Assembly (NCBI RefSeq): GCF_018476525.1
Contig: NZ_JAHCST010000061.1
Location: 1 to 55,033 of the forward strand
Direction: 5' to 3'
From: Acrocarpospora catenulata
Lineage (GTDB): Bacteria > Actinomycetota > Actinomycetes > Streptosporangiales > Streptosporangiaceae
DNA: 55,033 nucleotides
Below, in pieces: positions 13,342 through 24,439 of the stretch; position 1 is the first letter of the stretch; each line of letters begins with the position of its first letter. A program made the translations under genes and the position numbers. The notes below the pieces were generated by a model, which saw only the letters and a list, made by a program, of their open reading frames with translations, had not been told where the DNA came from and made no database searches.

Positions 13342-13431
13342 GTGACCACGGACAGCTCAGTCCAGTCGGAGGGCATCGACCCCTCCGTCCCCACCGCTGC
13401 GGGCATGTACGACTACTACTTGGGCGGGTAG
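13342..13431 (+). pseudogene. N-terminal fragment of a Methyltransf_19 (DUF574) methyltransferase
   Basis: A GTG start behind AGGAAGG opens a frame encoding MTTDSSVQSEGIDP and ending in MYDYYLGG, then TAG. AGMYDYYLGGKDNFAADR is the conserved N-terminal motif of the actinobacterial SAM-dependent methyltransferases of PF04672 (Methyltransf_19, formerly DUF574). The gene is cut exactly inside that motif by the integrated element, whose attP arm supplies the TAG. The rest of the gene resumes in the matching codon at 23451. The 29-aa product should be inactive. Confidence 0.9.
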
Positions 13432-13448
13432 AACATTCCTAAAACGAG
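13411..13448. other. attL of the serine-integrase element
   Basis: The host half is GACTACTACTTGGG, then the CGG core at 13425-13427, then the attP half GTAGAACATTCC and the arm TAAAACGAG (13440-13448). The arm is the exact reverse complement of the CTCGTTTTA arm in attR at 23431. The TAG stop in the attP half terminates the interrupted methyltransferase frame. The site lies 22 bp before the integrase start codon, the usual close placement of attP and int. Confidence 0.88.
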
Positions 13449-13469
13449 CGTTTCGTTCTAGGAGCCCCC

Positions 13470-15026
13470 ATGACCGTCGCGACCGCCCCCGGACAGCCCG
13501 TCTCACCTGCGCTTATCCCGGTCTTCTCCTACGCTCGGGCGTCCAGTGACAAGCGGAAGAAGGATCAGCACAGCGTCAAGGAACAGCACCGGATCAACCG
13601 GCGCACGGCCAAGCGGCACGGCTGGGTCGTGGTTGCCGAACTGACCGACAACGATAAGTCGGCCGCCGACCCGAACGTCTACCGGGACGACTTCGAGGAG
13701 ATGCTGATCTTGCTCAAGGCGGGTCGGCTGCGGGTCGGTTCCCCGGTGCGGGGCGTGGTCGTGGTCCACAGTGACCGGCTGGTGCGTCGTCCGGGTGACT
13801 ACGAACGGTTCGTTGAGGCGTTCACCTACAACGACGAGTTCGTGTTCGCCGACGAGAAGATCACCCACAACCTTTACAGCGAAGACGTGGAGAGCATGGG
13901 GCTTCTCGGCGCGGTGGTCGCCAAGATCGAGGTCCGGAAGATGCAGCGCCGGATGCGTAACACCCATCGGCGTCTGGCCGAGAACGGAGAGCCCGCGCTG
14001 GGTCGTCGCGCGTTCGGCTGGAAGGCCGACAAGGTCAACCTTGAGCCGGTGGAAGCGGATTTGCTGCGGGACGCGGTGAGAGACGTTCTCGCCGGTCGGT
14101 CGATCAACTCGGTTGCCACCGAATGGAACGCGAAAGGCATCCTGACGGCGAACGGGAAGACCTTCCGCCCCACGACGGTGCGGGCGATGCTCCTCGCGCC
14201 TCGCCTGTGCGGGTGGAGCACCCTCAAGAAAGAGATCGTCCTAGGCGCGGACGGTAACCCGGTCGTCGGCCGGTGGGTGCCGATCATCAAGCCAGAGCAG
14301 CATCTCGCGCTCACAGAGCTGTTGAGCCAGAACAAGCGATCGGGGTTCGACTATAGCCAGGTGAAGCCGTTCCGGCTTCCCGGCGACAAGCGCGAGGTCA
14401 AATATCTCCTGGTCGGCTTCCTGCGGTGCGGGCGGCTGAAAGAGGACGGCACCATGTGCAACGCGCGCCTGATTACCACTCCGGGCCGTAAACGGCACAA
14501 CTACATGTGCCCACGGCCGAACATGGGCGGCTGCGCGGGCATTTCCCGGAACGGGCCTGCTCTGGACGAGCACATTTCAGAGCTGGTGCTAGCCGCTCTG
14601 GAAGATGCCACGATCGGAGCGGCCATTACGCCGGTCACCGACACAAGCGGCCTTGAGAACGCGCTCCGGGAAGCGCAAGAAGCCTATGACGAGCATTTCC
14701 GCCAATACCGCGCCAAGAAGATAAACAAGACGTCGTTCTATCGGCTGCTGCCGGATCTGGAAGAGGATCTGAACCAGGCTCGGGCGGCGGTGAACAGGCA
14801 TGAGGCGGCCTCGGCCGTGCGGGATGCTCGGGCGCGTACCGATGTCGCCGATATCCGCCGCCGCTGGTACACCCCCGAGCAGGACGGCGGGTTGCCGTTG
14901 TCGATGAAGCGGACCTACATCCGTGAGGCGCTGCACACGGTGGTCGTGCTTCCGGTCCCGATCAACCGGCGTGGGCGCTTCCCGTTCAACCCTGACCTGG
15001 TGGAACCGGTGTGGCGGGAGGACTAG
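13470..15026 (+). CDS. int: Large serine recombinase (integrase)
   Basis: A 518-aa large serine recombinase. The N-terminal resolvase domain has the catalytic region FSYARASSDK with the nucleophile Ser25, and RGVVVVHSDRLVRRPGDYE later in the fold. A Recombinase domain follows (ALGRRAFGWK, LCGWSTLKK). A zinc ribbon spans residues about 317-357, with Cys pairs in CGRLKEDGTMC and CPRPNMGGC, then a coiled-coil stretch (LREAQEAYDEHFRQYRAKK). These are the parts needed for attP x attB recombination; directionality would need a partner RDF. The ATG at 13470 follows AGGAG at 13460. A short inverted repeat, AACGA/TCGTT, at about 13442-13456 lies between attL and the start and could be an operator. Confidence 0.95.
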   Translation: MTVATAPGQPVSPALIPVFSYARASSDKRKKDQHSVKEQHRINRRTAKRHGWVVVAELTDNDKSAADPNVYRDDFEEMLILLKAGRLRVGSPVRGVVVVHSDRLVRRPGDYERFVEAFTYNDEFVFADEKITHNLYSEDVESMGLLGAVVAKIEVRKMQRRMRNTHRRLAENGEPALGRRAFGWKADKVNLEPVEADLLRDAVRDVLAGRSINSVATEWNAKGILTANGKTFRPTTVRAMLLAPRLCGWSTLKKEIVLGADGNPVVGRWVPIIKPEQHLALTELLSQNKRSGFDYSQVKPFRLPGDKREVKYLLVGFLRCGRLKEDGTMCNARLITTPGRKRHNYMCPRPNMGGCAGISRNGPALDEHISELVLAALEDATIGAAITPVTDTSGLENALREAQEAYDEHFRQYRAKKINKTSFYRLLPDLEEDLNQARAAVNRHEAASAVRDARARTDVADIRRRWYTPEQDGGLPLSMKRTYIREALHTVVVLPVPINRRGRFPFNPDLVEPVWRED

Positions 15027-15049
15027 GCCGGTCGCTGCCATACCGATGT

Positions 15050-15079
15050 CGGGCGGGCTCGAACTTTCGGGCTCGCCCG
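15050..15079 (+). terminator. Stem-loop after the integrase gene
   Basis: CGGGCGGGC and GCTCGCCCG form a 9-bp stem with one mismatch around a 12-base loop, followed by the pyrimidine-rich TTCGTCTT. It starts 24 bases after the integrase stop, so a rho-independent type terminator is likely. Confidence 0.6.
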
Positions 15080-15140
15080 TTCGTCTTGACGGGTGGAGAC
15101 ATGCGAGTGTCCTCCGGAGATCAGCAGGCCGCACGGTCGG

Positions 15141-15340
15141 GGTAGGCTCCCGGCCACCGGGTAGCGCCAGGCGGGGAATGTTCCCGCCAATAGCTTAAAA
15201 ACGAAAGCCTCACAAAACAAAAACAAAAAAGTTCGCTGGGGTAGGCTCCTGGCACCGGGTCGCGCCAGTGGTGATGCGTCGCCACATGATAGCGAAAAAC
15301 GAATAGCCTCCAAAAAACTCTCTCAAAAACGAAGAAGCGG
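15141..15340. repeat. ~100-bp tandem repeat with conserved hairpins, upstream of rep
   Basis: Two tandem units, about 15141-15239 and 15240-15340. Each opens with GGTAGGCTCC, then a CCGG-type hairpin and GCGCCAG. Each continues with a second hairpin and ends with an A-rich tail containing AAAAACGAA and AGCCT. The second hairpins differ in sequence but keep their pairing: GGCGGG/CCCGCC at 15170-15188 and GTGGTGA/TCGCCAC at 15268-15285. The A-rich tails are striking in DNA this GC-rich. No gene of ours covers the block; it sits between int and the rep operon. A replication origin, an Rep- or regulator-binding region, or structured RNA are all possible. Confidence 0.75.
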
Positions 15341-15448
15341 CCTGAACGAGGTTCCGGAGATCGGGCGTACGTGCGCCCGGTTTCCGGTTCCTCTATTCGG
15401 TGGGTCTGCTTTCTCGCGTCTCCCTTCGTTTGCGAGAGAGGAGACGAT

Positions 15449-15646
15449 TTGGAGCATCGCCCTAGTAACGAAGCGCGTGAATGGGCAAGAAAGAAAGCGG
15501 CCGAACGGCCTCGCTGGTCGGAGGAGAAATGGCGTCGAATCGGCGTCATCTTCGGCGTTGAAATCGACGGCGAGAGGCCACGCACCACCGCCCCCGACCC
15601 TGTCCCCGGCTCTGTCGCCGACTCCGGGAACGGGATGGCGGCATGA
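15449..15646 (+). CDS. Small charged protein coupled to rep
   Basis: A 65-aa protein starting with TTG at 15449 behind GAGAGGAG, which gives ideal spacing. It contains EAREWARKKAAERPRWSEEKW and RRIGVIFGV, a basic amphipathic N-terminal half, then a Pro-rich tail. Similar short proteins with a PxWSEEKWRRI motif occur beside rep or integrase genes in streptomycete-type elements, from memory of the family; I know of no proven function. Its stop overlaps the repSA ATG (ATGA), so the two are translationally coupled. An excisionase-like or rep accessory role is only a guess. Confidence 0.75.
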   Translation: MEHRPSNEAREWARKKAAERPRWSEEKWRRIGVIFGVEIDGERPRTTAPDPVPGSVADSGNGMAA

Positions 15647-17049
15647 TCGACGGCATCTCTCCGGAAACGCTGGCCGCTCTGGAACGGGCGGCCCTGCCGG
15701 ACTTCCCCCGCTGGCAACAGATGATCACGGCAACCGGTGGGTGTGCTCACCCGATCCGCCTCGTGGGACGCCGGTTGACCTTCACCAACAGCCTGGACGT
15801 GATCGACTCCTACCGGACGGCCGACGAGCCGACCGGATACCTGCTGACGGCCTGCGGCAACCGGCGTGCCTCGCGCTGTCCGGCCTGCTCGGCCACCTAC
15901 CGGGACGACACCTATCACCTGATCCTGTCCGGCCTGCGGGGCGGCAAGGGCGTACCTGACGACATCACCGCTCACCCCCGGGTGTTCGCCACCTTCACCG
16001 CCCCGTCCTTCGGCCCGGTCCATCGCCGACGTGAGGCGGGCGGCAAGACCCTGCCGTGCCGACCTCGACGAGATCACCCCCTGTGCCCCCACGGTCGGCC
16101 GCTGTGGTGCCGTGTCCCTCACTCGGCCGATGACTCCCAAGTCGGGCAACCCCTGTGCGGGGACTGCTACGACTACTTCGGCGCGGTCCTGTGGAACGCT
16201 CACGCTGGCCTGCTATGGCGGACCTTCACCCGAACCCTTCCCGTGGCTCTGGCGGGCCTTGCCGGGCTCTCACGGGCTGCTCTGCGGGCCTGCCTTCGTC
16301 CCTCCTTCGCCAAGGTCGCCGAGTACCAAGCGCGGGGCCTGGTCCACTTCCACGCCGTGATACGCCTCGACGGCCCGGACGGTCCCACCTCGCCTCCTCC
16401 GGCCTGGGCCACTACCGGCCTGCTGGCCGATGCGATCCGGATCGCGGCCGGTGCCGTCCAACTGCCCATCGATGACCCCAACCCCGACGATCCGCCTCGC
16501 CTGCTGCGCTGGGGCGGTCAGCTCGACGTGGCACCGGTCCACCTGGGGGCGGGCCTGGACGGCGTCTCCGATCAGCGGGTTGCCTCCTACGTCGCCAAGT
16601 ACGCCACCAAGGGCGCGGAAGCCTCCGGGACGGTGGACCGCCCGATCCGGACCCTGCGCGATGTCGCCTACCTCGACGTAACCGAACACGCCCGACGCAT
16701 GATCTACACCTGCTTCCTCCTCGGCGACCTGGCGGCCTACCGGGCGGTACCGCTGCGGCGCTGGGCTCACATGCTCGGCTACGGGGGCCACTTCTCGACC
16801 AAGAGCCGTCACTACTCCACCACCCTGGCCAGCCTCCGCCACGCTCGCGCTGCCTACCGGGCCGAACAGTCCGGCCACCGTCGAACCACGCATGATCCGG
16901 ATTCCGGCACCTACATCACGGTGCAGGAATGGCGATTCGCCGGAAGCGGCCTCCGCCGTGGCGAAGCGCATTGGGCAGAGATCGCGCGGGAACGGATCGC
17001 CACTGCCCGCCACATTCAACGAGAGCGCCTAAAGAACAACCGCCCCTAA
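15643..17049 (+). CDS. RepSA-like rolling-circle replication initiator
   Basis: A 468-aa initiator related to RepSA of pSAM2-type elements. An N-terminal cysteine cluster (CGNRRASRCPACSATYRDD) and further Cys/His pairs are followed by the HUH metal motif in LVHFHAVIRLDG near residue 235, and by the Tyr motif YVAKYATKGAE near residue 315, which should make the covalent DNA link at the nick. These motifs define HUH endonucleases that start rolling-circle replication of the excised circle. The length is typical for the family and all motifs are present. It is coupled to the 65-aa gene upstream; the tandem structured repeat lies just before that pair. Confidence 0.92.
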   Translation: MIDGISPETLAALERAALPDFPRWQQMITATGGCAHPIRLVGRRLTFTNSLDVIDSYRTADEPTGYLLTACGNRRASRCPACSATYRDDTYHLILSGLRGGKGVPDDITAHPRVFATFTAPSFGPVHRRREAGGKTLPCRPRRDHPLCPHGRPLWCRVPHSADDSQVGQPLCGDCYDYFGAVLWNAHAGLLWRTFTRTLPVALAGLAGLSRAALRACLRPSFAKVAEYQARGLVHFHAVIRLDGPDGPTSPPPAWATTGLLADAIRIAAGAVQLPIDDPNPDDPPRLLRWGGQLDVAPVHLGAGLDGVSDQRVASYVAKYATKGAEASGTVDRPIRTLRDVAYLDVTEHARRMIYTCFLLGDLAAYRAVPLRRWAHMLGYGGHFSTKSRHYSTTLASLRHARAAYRAEQSGHRRTTHDPDSGTYITVQEWRFAGSGLRRGEAHWAEIARERIATARHIQRERLKNNRP

Positions 17050-17187
17050 ACCGTCACCCTTTAATCTCAGATCACCCATTACCCGCCTCGCCGACGAGTA
17101 GATCAGCCTCGGACTCTGCCGCGCATTCTTTCAGAGCGCCCGGAAACGACCGGAGCTTGATATCGGCGCTCGGCCTGTTTTTCCGGT

Positions 17188-17214
17188 GCAATTGGGTGCT
17201 CTTTGCCCAATTGC
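17188..17214. terminator. Stem-loop between convergent rep and XRE genes
   Basis: GCAATTGGG and CCCAATTGC form a perfect 9-bp stem around a 9-base loop (TGCTCTTTG). It lies in the 262-bp gap between the ends of repSA and the XRE regulator and may terminate one or both. The rest of that gap shows no gene. Confidence 0.55.
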
Positions 17215-17311
17215 GTCGATCGCCCCCGACCATGGACGGCGGCCAGCCACCGCAAGGCGATCGTAAGGGCTGCATTCGAGCGGTGCAGAGAACCGGACGA
17301 AAAACGGTGAT

Positions 17312-18487
17312 TCAGTTATTCGACAGGGCCTCGTGAATATCCCGTGCGCTGGCAACGTGCATTTGGTCGAGCGTTTCGGCGACAGTGTGCAATTCCTTGA
17401 CCGCATATGCGTTAACGGCTACTGCGTCCGGTGCCGTTGCTATCGCGATGTCCGCCGCCGCTTCTGCCTCGCCGCTAGCCAAATAAGCGCGAGCCAGGCA
17501 TGAATTAAACCATGCACGGTCTCGTCGGTAATTCTCGGGCAGATCGGATAGTCCGCGTTCTAGAAACGAAGCCGCGCGGTTACCTTCTCCAAGTTCCAAT
17601 TCGGCCATGCCGCGCTGCATTGTGAACCAACCGTCGTCGTAGAAGTACATCCACGACGGTTCCTCTTCGGGGCTTTCCGCTGATCGCCGGATGAGTTCTT
17701 CGGCTTCTCCGAGAAGTCCTCTCGCTGGTCCAGCCTCTCCGCTTTGGGCATGACCTCGTGCAGCCATTTGGGCCGCCATGCCTTGTACACCAAGGGTCGT
17801 ACGGCCCTCGTGCCAACGTGAGGCTTCGGCTAGGCGGATACACCGCTGTGCGTCTCCCATACTCCAAGCGAGATGAGCGCGCATATTCAGCGTTGTTGCC
17901 GCTAAATTGGGATCTCCTGCTTCTAGTGCCCAACCATGGGAGCGGTCATACCACGCCAGCGCCGCACCCAATTCGAGGGAGTCTTGGCATAACCAAGCGA
18001 TGAATTGGGCATATTGTGCAGCTACGCTTACTATTCGATCCCCTAATGCCCCTGACGCTCCATGAATTAAGTCAGTGACGATAGCGAGCTGGGAACTAAT
18101 AACGGGTAATAGTGGGGCACTGCCTAGTGTGTCCTCGATGCGCCGATGTTCGGCAAGGCAGCGTTCTAGCCATTCAATAGTGGCGAAATCGACACGCCGT
18201 GGATTGTCGATAACTTTTGTGATCCGCTGGTATAGGTCGGCGTCGGGCAAGAGGGAGGATGTCGGCAGGATGGGGATCGGTGTTGTGCTCGATTTGTGGA
18301 TATTGATTAACTCGCCATCGGCGTTTAATGCCTTGTCGAGTGCTGCCACGACTTGAGCGCTGGGTTTAATGGCGGGGTTGTTCTCCAGGATGGAGACGTA
18401 GCTCTTGGAACAGTTGGCGCGGAGTGCGAGGTTGCGCGTGGACATGTCGCCACGCAAGCGGCGTAGTGCTTCGCCGAACGTCTCCAT
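17312..18487 (-). CDS. XRE-family regulator with TPR-like C-terminal part
   Basis: A 391-aa regulator with an N-terminal Cro/C1 helix-turn-helix (FGEALRRLRGDMSTRNLALR, then CSKSYVSILEN) and a long helical repeat region resembling TPRs (AAQYAQFIAWLCQDSLELGA; GMAELELGEGNRAASFLERG). XRE-TPR proteins of this design pair with small ATP-binding or DUF397 proteins in the WhiJ-like systems of actinomycetes. The ATG at 18487 follows GGGAG. Codon use is clearly unlike the flanks: AT-rich third positions and at least three TTA leucine codons (for example in GELI, TDLIHG and PLLPV). This suggests acquisition from another source and possible bldA-dependent translation. It diverges from the HATPase gene. 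Confidence 0.85.
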   Translation of the reverse strand: METFGEALRRLRGDMSTRNLALRANCSKSYVSILENNPAIKPSAQVVAALDKALNADGELINIHKSSTTPIPILPTSSLLPDADLYQRITKVIDNPRRVDFATIEWLERCLAEHRRIEDTLGSAPLLPVISSQLAIVTDLIHGASGALGDRIVSVAAQYAQFIAWLCQDSLELGAALAWYDRSHGWALEAGDPNLAATTLNMRAHLAWSMGDAQRCIRLAEASRWHEGRTTLGVQGMAAQMAARGHAQSGEAGPARGLLGEAEELIRRSAESPEEEPSWMYFYDDGWFTMQRGMAELELGEGNRAASFLERGLSDLPENYRRDRAWFNSCLARAYLASGEAEAAADIAIATAPDAVAVNAYAVKELHTVAETLDQMHVASARDIHEALSNN

Positions 18488-18594
18488 GTGGGGCTCCCTC
18501 GAATCGCGGGGGGTGGGGCCTGGCCGCTGTCCACTGGGTTCGCTGGGCACCGTTGGGCGGGTCACCTCTGGCACCTGACTACGAGTGTAGAGAG

Positions 18595-18619
18595 GCTTAC
18601 GACCAGAACCTAAGTAAGC
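18595..18619. promoter_or_regulatory. Inverted repeat between the XRE and HATPase genes
   Basis: GCTTAC and GTAAGC are perfect 6-bp arms 13 bases apart in the 283-bp divergent gap. A second inverted repeat, TCAGGA/TCCTGA with a 9-base spacer, lies at 18747-18767, ending four bases before the HATPase ATG. Either could be the operator of the XRE regulator. Confidence 0.4.
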
Positions 18620-18770
18620 GGCGGATTGTGATTATCGCCGGAAATGTCGGAACTGCCTGGGGGGCGTGAACGGCCGTTCGGGCTCGTGATCGCCACAGCA
18701 GTAGGCGGGTCCGGCTGGCGCTGCGAACGACCAGCCGAACCCTTGATCAGGAAGGGATAGATCCTGACCC

Positions 18771-19400
18771 ATGGCACACGATAGGGCCACTCACACAGTG
18801 GGGCGACAAGATCGGGTTCTAGAGCAACCCTCTAGTGACGAGAACGGCAACCAGAGCGACTACCGGGGCGTTCACCGCGATTCGGGCACAGTGCGGACGG
18901 TGGTCGTGCGGCGGATCTATCAGCACTTGGTCACTCACCCTGTCTCGGTCGCGCTGGCTCGGGAACAGGTGCGGGCCAAGCTCATGGAGTGGGGACGGCG
19001 TGACCTGATCGACTCCGCTGAGCTGATCGTGACCGAGCTGGTCACCAACGGTATCCGGGCCACCCTCGACGATCTCAAGGTCAAGCACGGGGTCGATGAC
19101 GAGAGCGACGGCGGAACCGACGAGAGCGACGAGATCGACGACGGTATGCGGGTCATCGACCCTGAGACCGGTGAGCCGCTGATGGGGATGGTGGGGGTCA
19201 CCATCTACCGCGTTCCGGATGGGGCGGTGATTGAGGTCTGGGACCCTTCCCGCCAGCCTCCACGGCTCGTCGAGCCGAGGGCCGATGCCATCAGCGGGCG
19301 GGGGCTCCTGCTGGTCGATGCGGTGTCGCAGGACTGGGGCTACCGGCGTCCGGCAAGCGGCGGAAAGGTCGTTTACGCCAGGATCGGGGCGGCCTCGTGA
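18771..19400 (+). CDS. HATPase_c_2 (anti-sigma-type) ATP-binding protein
   Basis: A 209-aa protein with a GHKL/HATPase_c_2 fold: N-box in SAELIVTELVTNGIRA (residues about 80-95), G1-like VIEVWDPSRQPP, and G2 in SGRGLLLVDAVSQDWGYR. An acidic insertion (DDESDGGTDESDEIDDG) lies between N-box and G1. Such proteins bind ATP and act like RsbW-type anti-sigma or partner proteins; in WhiJ-like loci they sit beside an XRE-TPR regulator, as here. The target is unknown. The final TGA overlaps the GTG of the next gene. Confidence 0.82.
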   Translation: MAHDRATHTVGRQDRVLEQPSSDENGNQSDYRGVHRDSGTVRTVVVRRIYQHLVTHPVSVALAREQVRAKLMEWGRRDLIDSAELIVTELVTNGIRATLDDLKVKHGVDDESDGGTDESDEIDDGMRVIDPETGEPLMGMVGVTIYRVPDGAVIEVWDPSRQPPRLVEPRADAISGRGLLLVDAVSQDWGYRRPASGGKVVYARIGAAS

Positions 19401-19738
19401 GCGGAGGGCATCACGTCGGGCCTGCGGTCGAGAGCGACGAAGCCCTGTTGAGGTCGCTGGAGACGCTGGTGAGCGAGCGAGGCATGAGCGCGGCCTACTT
19501 CCCCGGAACTGCGGGCCTGGACGACGACGGGGCCTCGTGTCCGGCGCTGATGGTCTTCGACTCCGGAGGGGCGGAAGTGGCTCGGGTGACCGTCGCTCGG
19601 CGGGGCCGGACGTTCCTGGTCTCGCTGTTCAAGGGGGAATCGGCGCGCCTGCTGCCGTTCCGGACTGCCTCGGATGCGGCGGGGATGATCTGCGGCTACC
19701 AGAGTCCTGCCGGTCCGGGGATGGCACCGGGCGGGTAG
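19397..19738 (+). CDS. Unknown 113-aa protein coupled to the HATPase gene
   Basis: The GTG start overlaps the stop of the HATPase gene (GTGA), so it is translated with it. The product has an acidic N-terminal half and a compact beta-rich middle (ALMVFDSGGAEVARVTVARR, FLVSLFKGE). No family is recognised. Coupling suggests it works with the HATPase or regulator pair. Confidence 0.65.
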   Translation: MSGGHHVGPAVESDEALLRSLETLVSERGMSAAYFPGTAGLDDDGASCPALMVFDSGGAEVARVTVARRGRTFLVSLFKGESARLLPFRTASDAAGMICGYQSPAGPGMAPGG

Positions 19739-19971
19739 GCGGTGAGGCTCCTTCGGCTGGGCCTTGGCTCTCGGGGTCGGGTGGCTCGTCCTGATGAGCG
19801 CCATCCCGCGTGAATGCCCCCGTAGCGCGGGATGCGGGTCTGCCGGAGTGAGGTGGCGGGGCGGGTGAGTGGGTGTGGGGCCTGGCTCTTCCCGCTCCGC
19901 CACGTGGGTTGGTGTGTTCGGCAATGCCGTCGCTGGGACGGCGGACTTCGGCGCGTGAGGAAGGTCGGGCG

Positions 19972-20832
19972 ATGAGTGGCGGGGGTGTGATGGCGGGGGA
20001 TGTCGCTGAGGCTCCCGGGGGGCTGTGGGAGTTTGAAGAGCTCGCGGTCCATATCTCCGAGCAAGTTCGGTCGGGGGTCATTCTGGTCGGCGAACGGCTG
20101 GCTCCTCATGGGGAGGCCGGCGCGGTCTATGGGGTGTCGGGGTGGGTGGTGCGGTGGGCCTACGGCAGGCTCGCCGATCACGGGTGGGTCACTCCGCTGC
20201 GTGGTAAGGGCACCGTGGTTGTGAGCGCGGCGGGCGGGTGGCCGGGGGCGCTGCCGTGGATTCCTCCTCGGGGTGATTGGGCCGCGCATGTGCGGGTGCG
20301 GGGCCGTGTGGTGCATGAGCGGGTGGCCGATGTGATGGGGGGCTGGATCGAGGGGAGGGTGCTGCCTGCGGGGCTGCCGTTGAGGGATCGGGACGTGGCC
20401 AGGATCTTTGCGGTCTGTGCGGCAACGGCGGATCGGGCGGTGAATGCGCTGGTGGAGCGCGAGCTTGCCTGTCGTCGGGGCCAGAATCGGGGGACGGTGG
20501 CGGGTCGGCCGGACAGGTCGGTACCGGCTGGGGACGTGCCGCGCTGGCAAGAGATCGCTGATGACCTGGTCGTGCGGATCTGCCGTGAGGAGTGGCCCAA
20601 GGGCGGGCGGGTGCCCAGCATAGATCGGCTGCTCAAGGTGTACGGGGCGGGCAGGTCCACGATCAGTCAGGCGTTTGTCGCGCTGGCCGATCTCGGGCTG
20701 GTGGTGGTGCGGCGGGCACAGTACACGCGGGTGGCGCGCGAGTGGCCCACTGACGGCGACCAGTTGGAGGCGCGGTTGGCTGCCATCAGCCGGGCCGTGG
20801 TGGCCTACGAGCGTGCCGGGGGCGGGCCGTGA
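19972..20832 (+). CDS. Protein with three GntR-type winged-helix domains
   Basis: About 286 aa from the ATG at 19972 (GAGGAAGG upstream). Three successive segments each look like a GntR winged helix: residues about 19-85 (FEELAVHISEQVRSGVILVG to GWVTPLRGKGTVVV), about 113-178 (VVHERVADVMGGWIEGRVLP to GQNRGTVAGR) and about 190-258 (RWQEIADDLVVRICREEW to GLVVVRRAQYTRVA). The third retains the best recognition helix (YGAGRSTISQAFVALADLG). GntR regulators normally have one such domain plus a ligand domain, so a triple array with no effector domain is unusual. The stop overlaps the next start. A role as element repressor or partition/segregation DNA-binding protein is speculation. Confidence 0.75.
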   Translation: MSGGGVMAGDVAEAPGGLWEFEELAVHISEQVRSGVILVGERLAPHGEAGAVYGVSGWVVRWAYGRLADHGWVTPLRGKGTVVVSAAGGWPGALPWIPPRGDWAAHVRVRGRVVHERVADVMGGWIEGRVLPAGLPLRDRDVARIFAVCAATADRAVNALVERELACRRGQNRGTVAGRPDRSVPAGDVPRWQEIADDLVVRICREEWPKGGRVPSIDRLLKVYGAGRSTISQAFVALADLGLVVVRRAQYTRVAREWPTDGDQLEARLAAISRAVVAYERAGGGP

Positions 20833-21170
20833 TCGGGGAAGCGGCGGAGAACCCCGTTCGAGAGCTGGGGGAGCTGCGGGCTTTGGCGGGAATCCGGTCA
20901 GGGCTGCGTGATCGCGGGATCGCAACCCGGGGCGTGCGGGCGGAAACGGTGCCCGACGCGGTGGGCCTGTCCGGTGATGGCGGGGGCAAGCCGGTGCGGC
21001 TGCAAGTGCTCGGCGGCGGTGGGGTGGTCGCGGTGGTGTCGGTGGACGGTGAGGGTTTCCAGGTCGAGCGCGATGGGCGGGCGCGGCGGCTCGGGCGGTC
21101 GGCCGATGAGGTGGTGCGGGTGGTGGCTGGGCTGGTGGCCGGTCAGAGCTGGGGTGTCGTCGATGGGTGA
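20829..21170 (+). CDS. Unknown 113-aa protein in the element operon
   Basis: The GTG at 20829 overlaps the upstream stop (GTGA). The product begins with a charged helical part (NPVRELGELRALAGIRSGLR) followed by a beta-rich segment (VRLQVLGGGGVVAVVSVDGE) and a short helix. No family is recognised. Coupling to both neighbours makes it a real gene. Confidence 0.65.
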   Translation: MIGEAAENPVRELGELRALAGIRSGLRDRGIATRGVRAETVPDAVGLSGDGGGKPVRLQVLGGGGVVAVVSVDGEGFQVERDGRARRLGRSADEVVRVVAGLVAGQSWGVVDG

Positions 21171-21789
21171 TCCGGATGAGGCGATAGAGGAGATGAGCGG
21201 TCGGCTGGCGCTGGTCCGGGAGCGGCTGAGGGCGGCGGGGTTGACCGGCAAGGTTGTCATGCGCCTGGGGGGTGATGGTCCGGACGCGCTGGTGCTGCTG
21301 GCGTGTGAAGCGGTGGTGCGGGGTCCGTCGCGGGTGGTGGCAGAGGTGGAGTGGAACCCCTTTTGGGCTCACTTCCAGGTGTGCGGCACCTTCTTCGGCA
21401 GAGGGCTGGATTACGGCGGTGAGCGTGGGTTGCCGTGGCGGACGCCGGATCTGGATTCGGTGGTGACGCTGGTGCGGCAGAGCGTGAAGCGTCGGTCTTT
21501 GGCGCCGCGTGAAGTGGGTGAGGTGGTTCGGCTCTCCCGGGTGCGGGCTCGTCTGGAGGCGGCGGGGGTGGAGAGCTTCCTCGGCGTGGGGGTGGGCCTG
21601 GAGTTGACGGCGATGGCTTCCGACTGGCGCAGGGTGTTCACGGTCAGCTCGGAGTCGGCGGGTGGCTACCTGCTCTTGTGGACCTGGGTGCGGGACGGCA
21701 TGAAGATCTGGTGCCGACACGAGGTGAGGTCACCGGCTGGGGTGGTTGAGCTGGTGTGCAGTCCTGACCTGTCGGGGGTGGACCGGTGA
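21163..21789 (+). CDS. Unknown 208-aa protein in the element operon
   Basis: The ATG at 21163 lies inside the end of the preceding gene (8-bp overlap). The protein has an N-terminal helical part (EEMSGRLALVRERLRAAGLTG), a mixed middle (VVAEVEWNPFWAHFQVCGTF) and a C-terminal beta segment (MKIWCRHEVRSPAGVVELVC). No motif is recognised. A Trp/Phe-rich beta core suggests a soluble globular protein. Its stop overlaps the next GTG. Confidence 0.65.
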   Translation: MGDPDEAIEEMSGRLALVRERLRAAGLTGKVVMRLGGDGPDALVLLACEAVVRGPSRVVAEVEWNPFWAHFQVCGTFFGRGLDYGGERGLPWRTPDLDSVVTLVRQSVKRRSLAPREVGEVVRLSRVRARLEAAGVESFLGVGVGLELTAMASDWRRVFTVSSESAGGYLLLWTWVRDGMKIWCRHEVRSPAGVVELVCSPDLSGVDR

Positions 21790-22592
21790 GGGCATCGGGT
21801 GCGGCGTCGTCGGGGGCGTCGTCGGGGGCGTCGTCGGGGGCGGGGCCGGGCTTGCGGGCCGGGGTGATTCCGCTGGCCGCCTTCGGGGATGGCGGGGAGA
21901 TCCCCGTTCCTTACGTGATCGCCCGTTCGGGTGAGCTGGTGAACGATCCGCTGCTGTTCGCGATGGACTGGTCTCGGCGTCGGGAAGTGCTGTACCTGAC
22001 CTATGCCAGCAGGCGGGCGGCTGACTGGGTGGGCGGGATTCTGCGGGCGCGCGTGCTGGATTCGGGCGTCGGTGATCCGCTGTGGCGGCAGGTCAACACC
22101 GTTCGGCAATGGCGGTGCATGAGCGAGCTGCTGTGTCAGGTGTGCGGGCTGCCTGCGGCGGAGCCGGGTGAGCCGATTCCCTGGATCTTGACCGAGACGG
22201 CGTTTCACGGGCTGGCGGGGGTGCCCGATGCGGATGGCGGGGCCGGTAACGGCGATGCCGGGGACACCAACCAACCGCCCACGTGCCGGAGGTGTATCCC
22301 GTCCGCGCTGGCCTTCTGCCCTCGGCTGGGGGTCAGTGCGGAGGTGGTGACGGCAGGCAGCGCTGAGCCGGTGGCGGTGCTGGGCGAGCTGTTCCAACCG
22401 GGTGAGGGTGCGGGCTGGAGGTGGCCGGTCAGCGTCGGCCACAACGTCTATATCGGGCTTGACGAGTTCGCTCGGCATCCTCGGGTGCTGGCCACCCAAC
22501 TGGTCATGCGTCTGCATGACATCAGGCGGGAGGGCGGCGGGGCGGGGGCCGGTGAAGTGGCAGGGGCGGGGAGTTCAGCGGGGGTGAGCTGA
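21786..22592 (+). CDS. Unknown 268-aa protein with a putative zinc ribbon
   Basis: The GTG start overlaps the previous stop. The N-terminus has a low-complexity ASSGASSGASSGAG stretch encoded by three tandem 12-bp repeats (21806-21841). The centre has two Cys pairs, LLCQVCGLP and PPTCRRCIPS, plus a further Cys, separated by about 50 residues, which could form a zinc-binding site. The segment EIPVPYVIARSGELVNDPLLF precedes it. No family is recognised. The pattern resembles hypothetical proteins of actinobacterial mobile elements, without known function. Confidence 0.65.
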   Translation: MRASGAASSGASSGASSGAGPGLRAGVIPLAAFGDGGEIPVPYVIARSGELVNDPLLFAMDWSRRREVLYLTYASRRAADWVGGILRARVLDSGVGDPLWRQVNTVRQWRCMSELLCQVCGLPAAEPGEPIPWILTETAFHGLAGVPDADGGAGNGDAGDTNQPPTCRRCIPSALAFCPRLGVSAEVVTAGSAEPVAVLGELFQPGEGAGWRWPVSVGHNVYIGLDEFARHPRVLATQLVMRLHDIRREGGGAGAGEVAGAGSSAGVS

Positions 22593-22723
22593 TCGCCCTG
22601 GGGGCGGGTCTGGCTGCTCGTCAGAGTTCCGGGGCGGGATCACCGTGGGTGGTCTGGTCTCGGGCGTTCGCAAGTCCGGCCGTTGGGCTGGGCTTCCCTT
22701 CTAGCAAGGAAAGGAGTCGAGAG

Positions 22724-23077
22724 GTGGCGTTCCTCTACCTGTACCTAAAGATCGCTTTAGCGGTCCTGGTCGGGCTGGCGCTGCTGCGGCTGGTGCGTCC
22801 GGCCGTGTACGACCGCGTGATGGTCCGGTACTCGGGCGATCCGATACGCGGATGGCGGCAGGTACGGGCCATCGTCGAATACGCCGTTGGCTGGCCGATT
22901 CTGGCCTTACATCTGGTGCAGTGGCTACTGATTCGAGCTGCTGAGGGCGGCACGCGGTTGGTGTTCATCGTGCGGGGCCTGTGGCGTACCTCGGCAGCGC
23001 GGGGGGCTGAGGTGCGCGAAAACCTGGAGGCGCGTCAGGCGCGTCAGGTCGCGGGGATGGCCGCTCGCACGATCTGA
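22724..23077 (+). CDS. Small membrane protein of the element
   Basis: 117 aa from the GTG at 22724, eight bases after AAGGAG. It has an N-terminal transmembrane helix (YLYLKIALAVLVGLALLRLV), a second hydrophobic stretch (AVGWPILALHLVQWLLI) and a basic cytosolic tail (RGAEVRENLEARQARQ). It contains two TTA leucine codons, in IALAV and ILALH. Small membrane proteins near the end of AICE-like elements often aid transfer (Spd type), but nothing here proves that. The 131-bp gap before it has no gene. Confidence 0.7.
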   Translation: MAFLYLYLKIALAVLVGLALLRLVRPAVYDRVMVRYSGDPIRGWRQVRAIVEYAVGWPILALHLVQWLLIRAAEGGTRLVFIVRGLWRTSAARGAEVRENLEARQARQVAGMAARTI

Positions 23078-23106
23078 GCGAGTGTCGTCGGCAGGGCCGT
23101 AGGCGG

Positions 23107-23138
23107 GGGCGGGTTCGTTTCGAGGGGCGAACCCGCCC
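23107..23138 (+). terminator. Strong stem-loop after the element's last gene
   Basis: GGGCGGGTTCG and CGAACCCGCCC form a perfect 11-bp stem around a 10-base loop, 30 bases after the stop of the small membrane protein. No U-tract follows, as is common in high-GC actinobacteria. Confidence 0.7.
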
Positions 23139-23219
23139 GTGCATGTCGGGGTAGGGCTGGCTGGGGCTGGTGATGACGTCCGTACTGTCATGGTCTTAGA
23201 GCGCGGAGGGCTGGCCGCT

Positions 23220-23294
23220 CCCGCCGGGACCGGCCGAAGGCCGCATGCCCGGCGGGGAGGGCGGCCGGTAGCCCCCCGCGTGGCGCGAAGCGCC
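23220..23294. other. Dense hairpin block next to attR
   Basis: A 9-bp inverted repeat, CCCGCCGGG (23220-23228) and CCCGGCGGG (23248-23256), encloses a smaller hairpin GGCC-GAA-GGCC (23232-23242). A third hairpin, GGCGC-GAA-GCGCC, lies at 23282-23294. The last includes GCGAAGC, a sequence known to form exceptionally stable DNA mini-hairpins. The whole 23078-23397 stretch holds no convincing gene. For an element with a rolling-circle Rep, a single-strand origin or transfer locus is a reasonable guess. Confidence 0.55.
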
Positions 23295-23397
23295 CTTGAC
23301 CTTGTAGTGAAAGTTGGAGCCGTCCGACCGCCCCCGGGCCGTCGATCCGGGCTCGCGCGGAGATCGCAGAGCAGCAAAGCCGCTGGTGAGAGGGCAG

Positions 23398-24186
23398 ATG
23401 GACACGGTAACGCAACGATCGGCGAAAAGACTCGTTTTACGCATGTCCTACGGCAAGGACAATTTCGCCGCCGATCGCCGAGCCGCGAACAAGGTGATCG
23501 CAGCGGCTCCCGAGGTCATTCTCATGGCACGGGAGAACCGTGGGTTCATCCAACGTGCGGTGCGATTCTTGGCCCGCGAGGCGGGCATCCGCCAATTCCT
23601 CGACATCGGCAGTGGCCTGCCCACCCAGGGCAACGTCCACGAGATCGCCCAAGCTGAGGCGCCGGACGCACGCGTGGTCTACGTCGACAATGATCCGAAG
23701 GTGCTGGCCCGCTCGCGCGCCTTGAAGACCACCGAAGCCAAGAACACAAGCGTGATCACGGCGGACCTGCGCGAGCCGGATGTCATCCTCAACCATCCCG
23801 ACACCCGGGCGCAGATCGACTTCGACCAGCCGATGGCCATCCTGCTGGTGGCCGTCCTGCACTTCATCGACGACGAAACCGACCCGTACGGGATCGTCGC
23901 CCACCTCCGCGACGCCATGGCCCCGGGTAGCTACCTCGTCATTAATCACGCCACCGCCGACCCCAGGCCGGACAACGCCGGTGGCGCCCGCGAGGTCTAC
24001 AAGAACACCAAATATCCAGCCACACACCGCACGCACCATCAAGTCGAACGCTTCTTTGACGGCGTAGACCTCATCGATCCCGGCGTGGTGTGCATTTCCG
24101 AATGGCGGCCCGACACCGAAACCGACATCACTCCGGAGGAGGTCTGGATAATCGGCGGCGTAGGCCGGAAGCCGACTGTGGATTAA
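23398..24186 (+). CDS. Methyltransf_19 (DUF574) methyltransferase with element-derived N-terminus
   Basis: From the junction onward (YGKDNFAADRRAANKV) this is the remainder of a PF04672 SAM-dependent methyltransferase. The SAM-binding motif FLDIGSGLPTQGNVHEIAQ is intact, as are RVVYVDNDPKVLARSR and LLVAVLHFIDD. Only the first ~27 residues were lost to the insertion. The element supplies two in-frame starts: ATG 23398 (behind GAGAGGG), giving a 262-aa protein with 17 new residues, and ATG 23443 inside the attP half-site. The gene may therefore still be expressed and fold, unless the missing N-terminal helix is essential. The substrate of this family is largely unknown. Confidence 0.8.
   Translation: MDTVTQRSAKRLVLRMSYGKDNFAADRRAANKVIAAAPEVILMARENRGFIQRAVRFLAREAGIRQFLDIGSGLPTQGNVHEIAQAEAPDARVVYVDNDPKVLARSRALKTTEAKNTSVITADLREPDVILNHPDTRAQIDFDQPMAILLVAVLHFIDDETDPYGIVAHLRDAMAPGSYLVINHATADPRPDNAGGAREVYKNTKYPATHRTHHQVERFFDGVDLIDPGVVCISEWRPDTETDITPEEVWIIGGVGRKPTVD
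23431..23460. other. attR of the serine-integrase element
   Basis: The attP half is CTCGTTTTA (arm, 23431-23439) plus CGCATGTCCTA, then the CGG core at 23451-23453, then the host half CAAGGAC. Host codons from 23451 resume exactly where those at attL stopped. In attP the segment CTAC-GG-GTAG is symmetric around the same GG as the outer arms, marking the likely crossover dinucleotide. Confidence 0.88.
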
Positions 24187-24275
24187 CACAGTGGACAGAG
24201 AGCGCGCTCCTCGCGGGCTGTCGAACGGCCAAGAATGCGCTCTCGTGACGTCGCGGTACGAGTCACCTCTGGCGG

Positions 24276-24305
24276 GGGCTCCTGCGTCTGGGATGGCAGG
24301 AGCCC
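24276..24305 (+). terminator. Stem-loop after the methyltransferase gene
   Basis: GGGCTCCTGC and GCAGGAGCCC form a perfect 10-bp stem with a 10-base loop. A larger, looser pair GAGAGCGC (24198) and GCGCTCTC (24237) lies just upstream. The remaining bases to 24439 show no gene. Confidence 0.7.
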
Positions 24306-24439
24306 GCGCATAAGTACGGGTCTCGTGGTGGCGTGGCTGGGGAGCCGGGGTGTCGTCCCGTCCGCCATCACCTGGACGGTTGGTCGCTCGTCGCTTTCCC
24401 GGTTCCGGCAACATGCCTATGTTGGGAGGCGGAGGATCA

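Follow-up and report, generated by a model that had tools for sequence, protein, structure and literature searches.

What kind of mobile element has split a Methyltransf_19 gene in Acrocarpospora catenulata is a question raised by the window, i.e. the whole stretch of DNA analysed, which is the complete contig C140 (NZ_JAHCST010000061.1; 55,033 bp) of a draft genome of 10.3 Mb in 181 contigs. The initial annotation had proposed a serine-integrase element of about 10 kb with base-exact ends at positions 13411-23460; uninterrupted orthologues of the target gene and the symmetry of the attachment (att) sites agree with it, although a few host bases had been included and the element proper spans 13428-23453 (10,026 bp). 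The best explanation, very probably correct as a whole, is an integrative and replicating element of RepSA type, like pSAM2, with a large serine integrase. Both its integrase and its replication functions are of an ordinary, known kind, and no conjugation gene was shown; the strongest new leads are a series of related integrases with changed targets and a conserved, origin-like structure.

The element splits the target gene at a GG within codon 29. At the left junction, the frame that begins with GTG at 13342 runs to YDYYLGG and is halted by TAG (13429-13431); at the right junction, the Methyltransf_19 frame picks up again as GKDNFAADR at 23452; and CGG is common to both ends (13425-13427 and 23451-23453), all as the initial annotation had read them. 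The host 5' fragment (13342..13427, + strand) consists of 28 codons and the GG of codon 29, and the 3' fragment (23454..24186, +) belongs to a frame that remains open upstream, within the element, where an ATG stands at 23399. The rejoined gene matches PF04672 (1.9e-104). A protein search of the five-genome genus found the gene unbroken in G127 (contig C39, L042; 91% identity over residues 1-272) and in G106 (contig C38, L044; 90% over residues 2-272), and matches in the remaining two genomes (G027 and G079) reach 54% at most. The DNA alignments of both orthologues are collinear, with no break across the predicted join, and 40 of the 42 attB bases are identical in each. The uninterrupted copy that had been predicted is therefore present in two relatives, and neither the same two fragments without an element nor an uninterrupted homologue joined at another codon was encountered.

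The symmetry of the att sites points to the place of the crossover. The 42 bp of attL (13406..13447, +) and of attR (23432..23473, +) have inferred crossover dinucleotides at GG 13426-13427 and GG 23452-23453, respectively. Once joined, the two ends of the element read CTCGTTTTA, 12 bp, GG, 12 bp and TAAAACGAG, with an inner CTAC-GG-GTAG and arms equidistant from GG as previously stated; the rejoined attP reads CTCGTTTTACGCATGTCCTAC-GG-GTAGAACATTCCTAAAACGAG, and its 21-bp arms around GG match at 18 of 21 positions. Chance gives far lower values: moving the centre by 1 to 6 bases leaves at most 8 matching positions, and of 2,000,000 arm pairs drawn at random from the element, one reached 17 and none 18. 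Arm symmetry and the unbroken join together place the crossover at these two GG dinucleotides, which would be the bases exchanged. Symmetric attP arms about a 2-bp core shared with a different attB are what a large serine integrase is expected to use. A first att search, with 22-bp arms, was convincing for the window and two relatives (L097 and L101) only. A small dyad (CCTAAAACGA / TCGTTCTAGG; 13437..13463, +) lies between the attP arm and the start of the integrase gene and overlaps its likely ribosome-binding site; folded as DNA it has a z of -2.56, equalled by 5 of 200 shuffles, and dyads like it are visible by eye in some relatives.

The methyltransferase loses its YDYYLGG segment on integration and is therefore probably inactive for as long as the element stays inserted. 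The suggestion that there could be several attB sites per genome was not borne out. All 18 Methyltransf_19 paralogues that were read keep GG at the same place and match 23 to 37 of the 42 attB bases, and no second occupied site was seen; one copy of the window's integrase was found in the genome, the sole other match being 31% identical. A left-junction pattern with one mismatch allowed, which is tied to this attP arm and so blind to different integrases that might use the gene family, gave no other hit reading as a true insertion among 341 genomes of the family and 394 of the class, samples that overlap; its other hits read GGGAAG, GGGGAG or GGGTCG and were taken, from the matched letters, as uninterrupted gene copies.

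The integrase gene (13470..15026, +; 518 amino acids) begins 42 bp inside the left end of the element. A YARAS motif is visible in the protein, and the Resolvase (PF00239, 3.9e-14) and Recombinase (PF07508, 6.7e-14) domains score above their cut-offs and a zinc ribbon (PF13408) below its own (16.4 vs 25.3 bits), an arrangement that, within 400-650 amino acids, characterizes large serine integrases. The RepSA-like initiator of the initial annotation is supported as a RepSA-type rolling-circle replication initiator of 468 amino acids (15643..17049, +) that matches PF20199 (RepSA) at 6.9e-155; its score against the NCBIfam equivalog, 493 bits, is below the cut-off of 700.

Relatives of the integrase are widespread. 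Matches with E ≤ 0.001 occur in 137 of 297 family genomes, and matches with E ≤ 1e-60 in 16 of the 394 genomes of a class sample that overlaps with the first. Thirty stretches of up to 19 kb were taken around relatives, which with L040 and L041 make 32 relative loci (31 distinct, one element being counted twice as L041 and L118). A RepSA match lies downstream of the integrase in 29 of these, in pieces in L040 and L117; L100, L113 and L116 are without one, and L113 runs off its contig. Cargo genes other than integrase and RepSA are seldom common to the loci. In seven relatives, no FtsK match was found in the fetched region, and in G178, G215, G108, G044 and G095 none was found on the whole contig (the distal element end was not located in the first three of these). 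A scan with the single integrase protein found one locus among genome contigs (Thermomonospora echinospora, 45% identity) and none among viral contigs. Plasmid and phage records yielded distant relatives only, save one 48% match in a Nonomuraea gerenzanensis record.

The integrase tree comprises 39 proteins including the window's, 36 of the 38 others being 44-54% identical to it; four of 43 rows were left out, namely L040 (same as L038), L121 (same as L116), and L041 and L122 (one genome, broken frame start). Long spurious frames, frequent in high-GC DNA, made the longest upstream frame unusable for naming the targets, and motif labels were used in its place. The labels are msrA (14 integrases, including L016, relabelled by hand from YYQQY), aldo/keto reductase (7), sodium:solute symporter (3), rtcB (2), 5'-nucleotidase (2), GH18 (2), an HNH-type gene (1), an unknown gene (1) and Methyltransf_19 (1, the window), with 6 unassigned. 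Pfam agrees with the labels msrA (L102), rtcB (L116), 5'-nucleotidase (L097 and L101) and HNH (L106); the symporter label (L013) scores below the Pfam cut-off (18.8 vs 22.8 bits), the L011-type gene (seen at L087) matches no Pfam family, and motifs recognised by eye are the basis of the aldo/keto reductase and GH18 labels. The labels need 12 changes on the tree compared with 23.2 when shuffled (0 of 200 shuffles as low), which indicates that the target follows descent, with switches. The window's integrase, the only one of the 39 (6 without label) with a Methyltransf_19 target, groups with the symporter-type integrases and L011 (100/99).

Two of the other target types add detail on how these integrases insert. 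L097 and L101, from two genera, have integrases identical at 496 of 510 residues and lie in the same 5'-nucleotidase gene in opposite orientations; both attP arms and both halves of the split gene were found in each, and the common core is AT, a palindrome that would allow either orientation. In ten of 11 msrA-type loci (L090, L092, L093, L094, L099, L100, L102, L103, L105 and L110; the eleventh runs off its contig), the distal end has a complete MsrA frame and the integrase end has a piece starting at YHQQY; insertion at msrA thus leaves the target gene whole. SCCmec is an exception to target disruption by serine-integrase elements. Integrative mobilizable elements (IMEs) with serine integrases are described in the available text of PMC5704250 as disrupting their target. 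Unlike the msrA-type elements, the window's element does not obviously keep its target whole, as what is left is a methyltransferase without YDYYLGG and with an element-derived start at ATG 23399. A third MsrA C-terminal piece was noted upstream of the element in L102 (approximately 293-493), which suggests two successive insertions there.

A conserved two-hairpin element is located near the right end (23201..23325, +), where a long branched hairpin and a second hairpin are followed by the tail CCTTGACCTTGTAGTGAAA. DNA folding of 23195-23300 gave z -4.19 (0 of 200 shuffles as good) and RNA folding of 23195-23345 gave z -2.29 (6 of 200). Of the 32 relative loci, 24 have a copy, with differing stem sequences, on the same strand as the integrase; two loci have two copies, and one locus has a second copy on the opposite strand. 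The element is also found in L162 and on contig C100, an FtsK-bearing RepSA contig of the same genome. The tail varies (CCTTGACC, CCTTGAACC, CCTTTAACC) around a form like CCTTGACC...TGTAGTGAAA. A stricter pattern returned 36 copies, 23 of them with the tail, and 19 tailed copies were aligned, of which seven come from elsewhere in other genomes and one is that of contig C100. In this alignment of mutually related rows, 94.2% of cells pair compared with 81.6 when shuffled, 10 of 19 pairs have changed on both sides, and the covariation score is 0.330; shuffling gives a mean of 0.116, with none of 500 shuffles reaching the observed score, and sliding gives no more than 0.127. The distal end is known for 13 elements, the window's included; 11 of them have one tailed copy, and in nine the two-hairpin element is approximately 227-294 bp from that end, the reference point being the MsrA YHQQY codons in msrA-type elements and the end of the arm in the others. 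No Rfam family matched at the gathering score, and a plasmid collection gave three weak matches only (E 8e-3). Close copies of the hairpin core lie approximately 50-220 bp from the ends of contigs C150, C143 and C26 (L182, L190 and L194), as if the repeated stretch had broken the assembly.

The CTTG of the tail resembles nick sites of the phiX174/pC194 initiator group. Both the nicking of a double-strand origin by RepSA and the likeness of RepSA to the phiX174 group are stated in the available text of PMC3218068. We favour, with moderate confidence, the two-hairpin element as the double-strand origin of RepSA; a transfer locus, a single-strand origin or a control region of the integrase are the alternatives. 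A repeat search for a clt-like array found weak repeats only, and promoter and terminator scans found nothing. In the proposed life cycle, excision would re-form both the circle and the methyltransferase gene, and RepSA would start rolling-circle replication of the circle at the two-hairpin element, some 227 bp inward of attR, with the nick at CTTG. Lacking TraB, the element would need a co-resident helper to pass between cells; possible helpers exist in the same genome, as contigs C100 and C179 each carry RepSA together with FtsK (that of C100 also by Pfam). More tentatively, the element could belong to a non-conjugative lineage of Streptosporangiaceae and their kin, with a fixed module of two-hairpin origin, attP, serine integrase and RepSA, that spreads by retargeting to conserved genes (here Methyltransf_19) and by hitchhiking on co-resident TraB elements that share the origin structure, as on C100.

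Among the other genes of the element, a 65-amino-acid open reading frame with a TTG start (15449..15646, +) overlaps rep, and short homologous stretches occur in five of the 32 relative loci, always just upstream of rep. Beyond rep, Pfam, NCBIfam and PHROGs searches identified a helix-turn-helix regulator of the NsdA TPR-like family (17312..18574, -), and domain matches identified an anti-sigma-like HATPase_c_2 protein (18771..19400, +) and a GntR-family regulator with repeated GntR domains (19873..20832, +). Five proteins have no Pfam or NCBIfam family: two of 113 amino acids (19397..19738 and 20829..21170, both +), one of 208 (21163..21789, +), one of 268 (21786..22592, +) that matches PHROGs of unknown function and has three more copies in the genome (61-66% identical), and one of 117 (22724..23077, +) with an N-terminus that is hydrophobic by eye. 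On contig C29 (L159, 1425-3278), homologues of two cargo genes (window 20829-22592), among them the second 113-amino-acid protein, lie directly downstream of a Methyltransf_19 paralogue, and the cargo pair of HATPase and 268-amino-acid protein has a twin on contig C150.

No PF01580 (FtsK/TraB) domain was found in the ten element proteins, and no FtsK/SpoIIIE match on contig C140 (135 of 160 genome candidates scored), in Pfam, NCBIfam and PHROGs searches and one FtsK search. The element might instead be a decayed actinomycete integrative and conjugative element (AICE) which, after losing TraB, is now stuck in place or handed down passively, and its GntR regulator is of a kind that pSAM2-like elements carry. 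The missing translocase also fits decay, AICEs as surveyed in PMC3218068 (available text) encoding an FtsK/SpoIIIE translocase. We nevertheless consider decay unlikely: the integrase and rep frames are open, the att sites are intact, and the seven relatives with the same integrase-RepSA module and no FtsK in the fetched region make the absence look like a trait of the lineage rather than a single accident.

The ATG at 23399, preceded by GAGAGG, raises the possibility of a regulated switch, in which the methyltransferase would be re-expressed from the element with a changed N-terminus and excision would restore the original. From 23314 onwards no stop interrupts the frame across attR until the end of the gene, and the fused frame, which covers profile positions 25-268 of PF04672 instead of 4-268, keeps a score of 315.9 bits, compared with 349.3 bits when the gene is rejoined. 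The new N-terminus is, however, unlike the one it replaces, a scan for sigma-70-type promoters only gave no promoter-like match at 23050-23500, and this is a single case of an open frame whose length is not rare in high-GC DNA, so that a switch appears quite improbable. A phage satellite or defective prophage with a phage integrase is more doubtful still: the integrase matches the phage family phrog_95 (4.8e-65) and has relatives in 130 phage records, but among the matches listed (20 of 130) these are 23.8-26.5% identical, compared with 44-54% for 36 of the 38 other integrases in the tree, no structural or packaging family is represented among the ten proteins, and RepSA is known from plasmids and AICEs. 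An assembly chimera, conceivable in a draft of 181 contigs, is a negligible prospect, since it would not produce junctions that fit uninterrupted orthologues to the base or joined ends that give a symmetric attP.

Several observations weigh against the favoured explanation, of a RepSA-type integrative element with a two-hairpin origin. The end branch of the window's integrase is long (1.26), and its nearest relatives may therefore be poor guides. The absence of transfer genes depends on the searches named above, with five proteins in no Pfam or NCBIfam family. By the pattern used, 8 of the 32 relative loci have no two-hairpin copy; its distance from the distal end is off in 4 of 13 elements (647 bp in L099, 2906 bp in L094, a tailless copy in L110 and none in L093); and the structure tested for covariation was predicted from the same alignment, which favours it. 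The case is made from sequence, neither an excised circle nor a same-strain empty site having been seen, and no directionality factor was identified in the element. In addition, the flanking genes in the window, an alcohol dehydrogenase-like gene (ending at approximately 13,183) and a gene from approximately 24,463 that is patatin-like by reading, have orthologues adjacent on one contig, approximately 2.8 kb apart, in all four other genus genomes, and in G106 and G127 the methyltransferase orthologue is on another contig, which indicates that the methyltransferase gene is placed differently in this genome. The uninterrupted orthologues are thus the same gene at another chromosomal position, and the join itself is unaffected. 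A repeat outside the element (24266-24373) has one copy on contig C150 (93% identity) and another on C29 (87%).

For an actinobacterial family in which genetic tools are few, the locus offers a new serine integrase with an attP/attB pair predicted to the base, and the target gene family has many paralogues. With 39 integrases and at least eight coding targets on one tree, changes of serine-integrase target can be traced on real pairs, and the conserved structure beside attP provides a testable candidate replication origin for RepSA elements.

Like AICEs of the RepSA group such as pSAM2, the element has a RepSA initiator (the AICE alternatives being RepAM and Prim-Pol), a site-specific integrase adjoining an att site, with both attL and attR present, and a GntR-family regulator; unlike them, it has no detected FtsK/TraB, its serine integrase uses a protein gene, and the integrase is at one end, followed by rep. 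With no FtsK/SpoIIIE match found on the contig, it falls outside the AICE definition in the available text of PMC3218068. That a serine rather than a tyrosine integrase is used, which was part of what the initial annotation named in calling the insertion site unfamiliar, is not unusual in itself, serine recombinases being used by 19 of 144 published AICEs (PMC3218068, available text). Transfer in an actinobacterium would be of the TraB type, and the Firmicutes IMEs with serine integrases are mobilized by single-strand conjugation with a relaxase or oriT. The element resembles those IMEs (e.g. at rumA; PMC5704250, available text) in having no conjugation machinery of its own and in the disruption of a gene by a serine integrase, and differs from them in its RepSA initiator and its actinobacterial host. 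As with the large serine recombinases of PMC10083194 that target conserved genes, as far as its main text goes, the site is a conserved coding sequence with a central dinucleotide and the target tracks integrase phylogeny; the difference is the target family, the word "methyltransferase" being absent from that main text, with supplementary tables in which such a target may still be listed. Among the papers listed in the literature searched, mostly without subscription papers, there was no report of either Methyltransf_19 or msrA as a serine-integrase site, and the Methyltransf_19 target of this element looks new.

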